A stretch of DNA of 64,000 nt. Source: Brachyspira hampsonii 30446 (GTDB lineage: Bacteria; Spirochaetota; Brachyspiria; Brachyspirales; Brachyspiraceae). Shown in pieces: positions 43,853 to 44,156 of this stretch. The stretch lies in contig NZ_JH994111.1 in NCBI RefSeq assembly GCF_000316195.1, forward strand, positions 1,816,062 through 1,880,061, written 5' to 3'. The translations under genes and the position numbers were made by a program. Positions within the stretch are counted from its first letter, which is position 1; each line of letters opens with the position of its first letter. The notes beneath the pieces are model-generated. The model saw only the letters and a list, made by a program, of their open reading frames with translations. It was not told where the DNA came from and made no database searches.

Positions 43853-44156
43853 TAGACTTGTTTCAAAAGTCATTTTATTTATAATTTGTGGGGACTAGCC
43901 CTGCGAAGCACACAGTCGTGCCACACCCCCACTTCTTTTGCCGACGCTCTGCGTGCCGTAGGCAAGGCACCTACTCGGTGGTGACCCATACAAAGTACGC
44001 CTACGGCGAGAAGCAAAAGGACTGCATTTTATAGCTTAAACATACGGTTTATACAACATGTAAAATATTTAATTAAATTATAATGAATATTATTTAATTA
44101 AAAATAAAATAATAAACTTATAAAATTATTTGTAAAGTAGTTTTGAAACAAGTCTA
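43853..44156. mobile_element. MITE-like element, family A, copy 1
   Basis: A 304-bp non-coding element with perfect 16-bp terminal inverted repeats TAGACTTGTTTCAAAA (43853-43868) and its complement (44141-44156). The outer TA on both ends fits a TA target duplication, as with IS630/mariner-type elements. Between AT-rich arms lies a GC-rich core (about 43888-44028) far above the local GC. Blocks of the core, such as GGGTCACCACCGAGTAGGTG and CACGACTGTGTGCTTCGC (read on the minus strand), recur in the copy at 62643-63062, which lies in the opposite orientation. It has no open frame. It lies 70 bp before the DegT-like gene. Confidence 0.75.

Follow-up and report, generated by a model that had tools for sequence, protein, structure and literature searches.

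A probable IS5-family miniature transposable element with nested double-hairpin modules in Brachyspira

The closest described systems to the element reported here are insertion sequences and miniature inverted-repeat transposable elements (MITEs) of the IS5 family, ISL2-like group. As a rule, the ISL2-like group makes a 3-bp ANT target duplication. The element is present in two copies in a window of Brachyspira hampsonii 30446, the whole stretch of 64,000 nucleotides that was analyzed (C4:1816062-1880061 of G000, the window's 3.04-Mb genome). It is very probably a non-autonomous IS5-family MITE, ISL2-like, moved in trans and carrying nested-hairpin modules in its core. It resembles the known systems in that an insertion sequence with the same ends encodes a DDE transposase of the IS5 kind, and in its AGAC...CAAAA-type ends, the 3-bp ANT duplication, and a short geneless interior. 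It differs in its hairpin core and nested modules, to which nothing corresponds in the recovered parts of the insertion sequence. The double-hairpin elements and nested palindromic repeats of Volvox (PMC2670323) and others are repeats of organelle genomes, whereas the Brachyspira modules ride bacterial transposons, are about 20 nt long with a fixed 4+3 bp design, and sit in loops; a common origin is not implied. The Porphyromonas gingivalis element (PMC4596501) is likewise a bacterial MITE with internal repeat units; these form a minisatellite, tandem by name, whereas the Brachyspira units are nested in hairpin loops. REP and REPIN sequences (PMC3116915) are likewise short palindromes with many copies per bacterial genome; their design and nesting are unlike those of the Brachyspira modules, and no REP-type transposase or end motif was seen, none having been tested for.

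Both copies in the window are intergenic and contain no coding frame. The perfect 16-bp inverted ends described in a first-pass annotation of the window were seen at both elements, with TAGACTTGTTTCAAAA at 43853-43868 (+) and 44141-44156 (-) in copy 1 and at 62643-62658 and 63047-63062 in copy 2. The outer T of each terminal TA belongs to the target duplication, so copy 1 proper measures 302 bp between flanking AAT triplets and has 15-bp inverted repeats (Table 1). G+C content is 60% at 43900-43999 versus 28% for the window, in agreement with the GC-rich core in AT-rich DNA noted at first. Within this window, copy 1 is indeed unlike all else except the copy at 62643.

G000 contains 159 exact matches to the 15-mer AGACTTGTTTCAAAA (79 plus, 80 minus); the reversed control gave 0. 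With at most one mismatch, the 16-mer has 231 occurrences in the same genome, and copy 1 used as a Blast query gave 90 matches there. Family size in this genome is roughly 100 copies. Exact ends are found in 22 of 26 Brachyspira species, with counts of 0 to 159 and the maximum in G000. Copies are short (191-426 bp, with 15-bp terminal inverted repeats), many and dispersed, lack a transposase gene, and have target duplications and empty sites, as expected of a MITE. Genes are avoided in the sampled insertions, of which 2 of 45 lie within a long open reading frame of the rejoined DNA, versus 321 of 450 random points. The first-pass annotation had proposed a mobile MITE without transposase and an undescribed Brachyspira repeat family. 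Both proposals held: the elements are non-coding, their ends are multicopy across the genus, relatives have empty sites, and no published description of the family was found in the open library literature. No plasmid record matched a MITE copy, the extended end was not found in viral contigs, and matches to the 16-mer beyond Brachyspira were mostly chance-like.

The target duplication was determined from empty sites and from 75 G000 copies, a fetched sample and not the full set. The copy 1 site is cleanly empty in the related genomes G004 and G005, where flanks are 91-97% identical and a single TAATA stands in place of the TAATA...TAATA of the window. An empty site for copy 2 is present in G005, with a 4-nt overlap. 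Next to the 15-bp repeats, 28 copies have the flanking triplets AAT/AAT and 31 have ATT/ATT (59/75), and the middle flank base matches in 59 of the 66 copies having A..T on both sides. Left and right flanks thus agree outside the TA, which makes AWT the duplication and assigns the last A to the element. The base before the duplication is T in 54/75 and the base after it is A in 56/75; these outer bases are therefore target preferences and not part of the duplication. The duplication is 3 bp, AWT, usually within TAWTA. The empty-site comparison proposed at first yielded the expected empty alleles, but the single TA predicted as their duplication proved to be AWT. A TA duplication as a rule was excluded by the flanks of the 75 copies.

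The same ends were found on an insertion sequence. A search of the genus with PF01609 gave matches in four genomes only (G005, G011, G018, and G023). Those in G011 and G018 adjoin these ends, with a transposase remnant terminating inside the same inverted repeat, whereas the G005 and G023 matches lie beside other elements. The G011 frame P0001, a transposase C-terminus, matches PF01609 (DDE_Tnp_1; 1e-19) and PF13359 (DDE_Tnp_4; 3e-19), both above cut-off. P0001 is the C-terminal half only; for this fragment the best NCBIfam match, NF033581 (IS5), is under its cut-off. P0001 is 43-51% identical to IS5-family transposases on plasmids. G011 appears to be B. pilosicoli PC5538III-hc, in which an IS5-family insertion sequence is multicopy and shares the 15-bp ends and the subterminal CTTGACAA with the MITE. 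This element ends at contig breaks, with AGACTTGTTTCAAAAGTACTTGACAA on one side and AGACTTGTTTCAAAAGTCATTTTTTAACTG, encoding the transposase end, on the other. After the repeat, the insertion-sequence left end reads GTACTTGACAA, and at least 58 of the 75 MITEs have C or G followed by TACTTGACAA there. Outside the repeat, the MITE left-end consensus is identical to the insertion sequence at 19/29 positions (shuffle p 0.0004). Insertion-sequence ends are flanked by ANT in 7/7 cases inspected; AGA(C/T)..CTTGCA-type ends and ATT/AAT duplications recur in relatives from Spiroplasma and Acinetobacter. MITE copies, insertion-sequence ends, and relatives all follow the ANT rule. PF13586 had zero matches across the genus, and no transposase relatives were found in phage records or viral contigs.

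A core of small stacked double-hairpin blocks is unusual in bacteria. Simple copies, read with the insertion-sequence left end first, have two hairpins, e.g., GCAGTTCTTTTGGTTCTTTTATACCAATAAAAGAACTG and GGGGCAAAGCCCC. Complex copies have extra GC-rich blocks inside the hairpin loops. Each block is about 20 nt and consists of a 4-bp stem with a 3-nt loop, then a 3-bp stem with a 3-nt loop. The core is GC-rich because its hairpin loops hold these 19-22-nt double-hairpin modules; module loops can hold further modules, so copies differ in steps of ~19 nt. In eleven defined contexts, loop contents are 0-3 nt (118), 18-23 nt (89), 37-42 nt (24), or 57-59 nt (9), with few between. A perfect-pairing scan found 56 double hairpins in the 75 copies versus a mean of 0.23 after local shuffling. 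The twenty distinct sequences among these draw on three different first and five different second stems. The next block is usually housed in the loop of the previous block's first hairpin, as in the series CGCC[GTA]GGCG, CGCC[TGCC GTA GGCA CACACAGTGA]GGCG, and CGCC[TGCC[GACACCAAAGGTGGACTTCGTC]GGCA...]GGCG. Modules appear to be gained or lost as discrete units. At 99.1% identity, L023 and L273 differ by exactly CACCGAAGGCGGACAGCGTC, and a single 45-nt block distinguishes L276 from L287, which share 99.5% identity. No convincing shared insertion site was found between the G004 elements compared and the sampled G000 copies; the one near match, L386/L046, is alignable only outside the elements.

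Modules also occur outside the MITE. In a sample of 393 Spirochaetota genomes, the module pattern TGCCNNNGGCACRCASAGYG was found in 22/26 Brachyspira genomes, once in a sister-genus genome, and in 0/366 others; the reversed control gave zero. Genomes with few or no MITE ends have the core between other ends. L229, L230, L234, and L235 (G006, G025, and G002) have the same GC-rich core flanked by different ends, one side reading GACAAAATATAGTTGTTTAGGTAT or similar; these may represent a further transposon family. Elsewhere in G000, a variant-end copy and two arrays built from other palindromic repeats contain the pattern. The variant-end copy, L307 (G000:C4:7700-8650), has TAGACCTGTTGCAA...CAACAGGTCTA around the MITE core and is a possible sister MITE family. 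The arrays consist of ATCCCGCTTTCCTAC...GTAGGGTATCGAGAC repeats (54-127 nt) with unique 28-30-nt stretches between, then GGCTTTTTTnAGCC. They lie at L327:2102-3226 (G000:C4 about 174100-175230) and on the minus strand of L328 (reverse coordinates 2471-2914). Some of their repeats contain the same double-hairpin module, and part of one array is masked. Array geometry is CRISPR-like; no cas genes were recognized by eye among long frames within ~6 kb, and the arrays had no significant Rfam match. A Brachyspira repeat on a CAACTTTTTCCCGCC...AAAGTTG hairpin (L309, L318, L324, and others) bears the same modules. Module-like matches in viral contigs may be chance.

The reading as an IS5-family MITE draws on copy number, ends, duplication, empty sites, ends common with the insertion sequence, and modular nesting, all read from genome sequences. 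The MITE retains the insertion-sequence ends without the gene, and the IS5-type transposase would mobilize it in trans, by cut-and-paste, into intergenic T-AWT-A targets. Internally, the loops of two hairpins hold modules, and module loops can hold further modules. Its role is most likely selfish, that of a transposon tolerated between genes. Several points weigh against this reading. At the right end, the family as a whole matches the insertion sequence weakly (p 0.10); the match is strong only for some copies, copy 1 among them. The insertion sequence is only partly assembled: contigs break off at its copies, and another element truncates the one gene copy that extends further. The 75 sampled copies are interrelated, so counts from them are not independent events. 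A related transposase was not found in the window's genome by the searches made, and the MITEs there would therefore be stranded or mobilized from outside. The partner proposed in the first-pass annotation was of IS630/mariner type. An IS630/Tc1-mariner MITE with a TA target and a 2-bp duplication fits the TA at the extreme of every intact end, but is very improbable: where both flanks read A..T, their bases just beyond the TA match in most copies (T/T 31, A/A 28) and differ in 7, and the insertion sequence bearing these ends is IS5-family (DDE_Tnp_1/DDE_Tnp_4).

The core of the proposed IS5-family MITE may have been shaped in several ways. Cores could have been swapped among repeat families by homologous recombination or gene conversion, with modules not themselves mobile, a serious possibility that stops short of being probable. 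In keeping with such exchange, other genomes have this core flanked by different ends, and L307 has it with ends AGACCTGTTG; exchange accounts for whole-core sharing, but less readily for single modules in loops with differing surroundings. Hairpins are prone to deletion, and complex cores could be ancestral, with simple copies arising by hairpin deletion during replication and modules not inserted. One-block differences between near-identical copies fit gain or loss alike. This origin is nevertheless doubtful: unrelated hairpins (ATCCCGC...GTATCGAGAC arrays and CAACTTTTT repeats) bear the same modules, which requires at least a degree of gain or spread. The core may act as DNA hairpins or, as the first-pass annotation also suggested, as RNA. 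It seems unlikely, though, that the core is a selected RNA (a regulator or a processing or termination signal) with module variation as tolerated loop variation. Copy 2 folds clearly better than shuffles (z -4.8), paired base-hairpin changes are seen by eye (TGTGGGG/CCCCACA, TGCGGGG/CCCCGCA, and TTGGGG/CCCCAA), and the same core is found in repeats with other ends, all consistent with an RNA. The copy 1 core, however, folds only modestly better than shuffles, with z about -2 on either strand (RNA z -2.0 / -2.2; DNA z -2.6 / -2.1). Neither element matched Rfam above the gathering score, the window giving two tRNAs only, and no consensus terminator was found. Whole-module nested growth is also atypical of functional RNA. 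Slippage, recombination, and module mobility are the possible remaining routes for module entry and exit. Tentatively, and with rather low confidence, the ~20-nt double hairpins can be viewed as bacterial micro-elements that spread into DNA-hairpin loops, each other's included, and produce tree-like nested palindromes genus-wide.

The nested double hairpins provide a countable stepwise record of hairpin gain or loss, making such growth testable in a bacterial genome. The family explains GC-rich intergenic DNA in a genome that is otherwise AT-rich, and it is a source of markers for comparing strains.

Table 1. Coordinates of the two elements and their parts in the window
Feature	Position	Strand	Remarks
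Left target-site duplication AAT, copy 1	43851..43853		Single copy in G004 and G005 empty sites
MITE copy 1, 302 bp	43854..44155	-	44155 is the counterpart of the insertion-sequence left (5') end
15-bp terminal inverted repeat AGACTTGTTTCAAAA	43854..43868	+	Followed inside by GTCATTTT, as at the insertion-sequence transposase-3' end
GC-rich core, two hairpins with double-hairpin modules in loops	43887..44027	-	
19-nt double-hairpin module CACGACTGTG+TGCTTCGCA, site D	43902..43920	-	Missing here in six other copies
40-nt nested module ACCGAGTAGGT+GCC...GGC, site C1	43940..43979	-	Second double hairpin within loop
Inner double-hairpin module TGCCTACGGCA+CGCAGAGCG	43945..43964	-	
Double-hairpin module CGCCGTAGGCG+TACTTTGTA, site B	43989..44008	-	
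15-bp terminal inverted repeat	44141..44155	-	Followed inside by CTACTTTACAA, like insertion-sequence left end GTACTTGACAA
Right target-site duplication AAT, copy 1	44156..44158		G004 and G005 empty sites
Left target-site duplication ATT, copy 2	62641..62643		
MITE copy 2, 418 bp	62644..63061	+	
57-nt three-level nested module, site A, copy 2	62785..62841	+	
57-nt three-level nested module, site B, copy 2	62849..62905	+	97% identity to site A over 60-nt repeat
22-nt module ACCGAGTAGGT+GCCTATTCGGC, site C1, copy 2	62915..62936	+	
19-nt module CACGACTGTG+TGCTTCGCA, copy 2	62975..62993	+	
Right target-site duplication ATT, copy 2	63062..63064		

Ends of this kind were also observed in two other settings. 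A 163-bp AT-rich stretch of a Bacteroidetes metagenome-assembled genome (L091:539-701) has near-identical ends with AAT on both sides, and could be chance or a relative. In Brachyspira innocens, a flagellin-like gene lies between two elements with these ends (L140:2456-5080).
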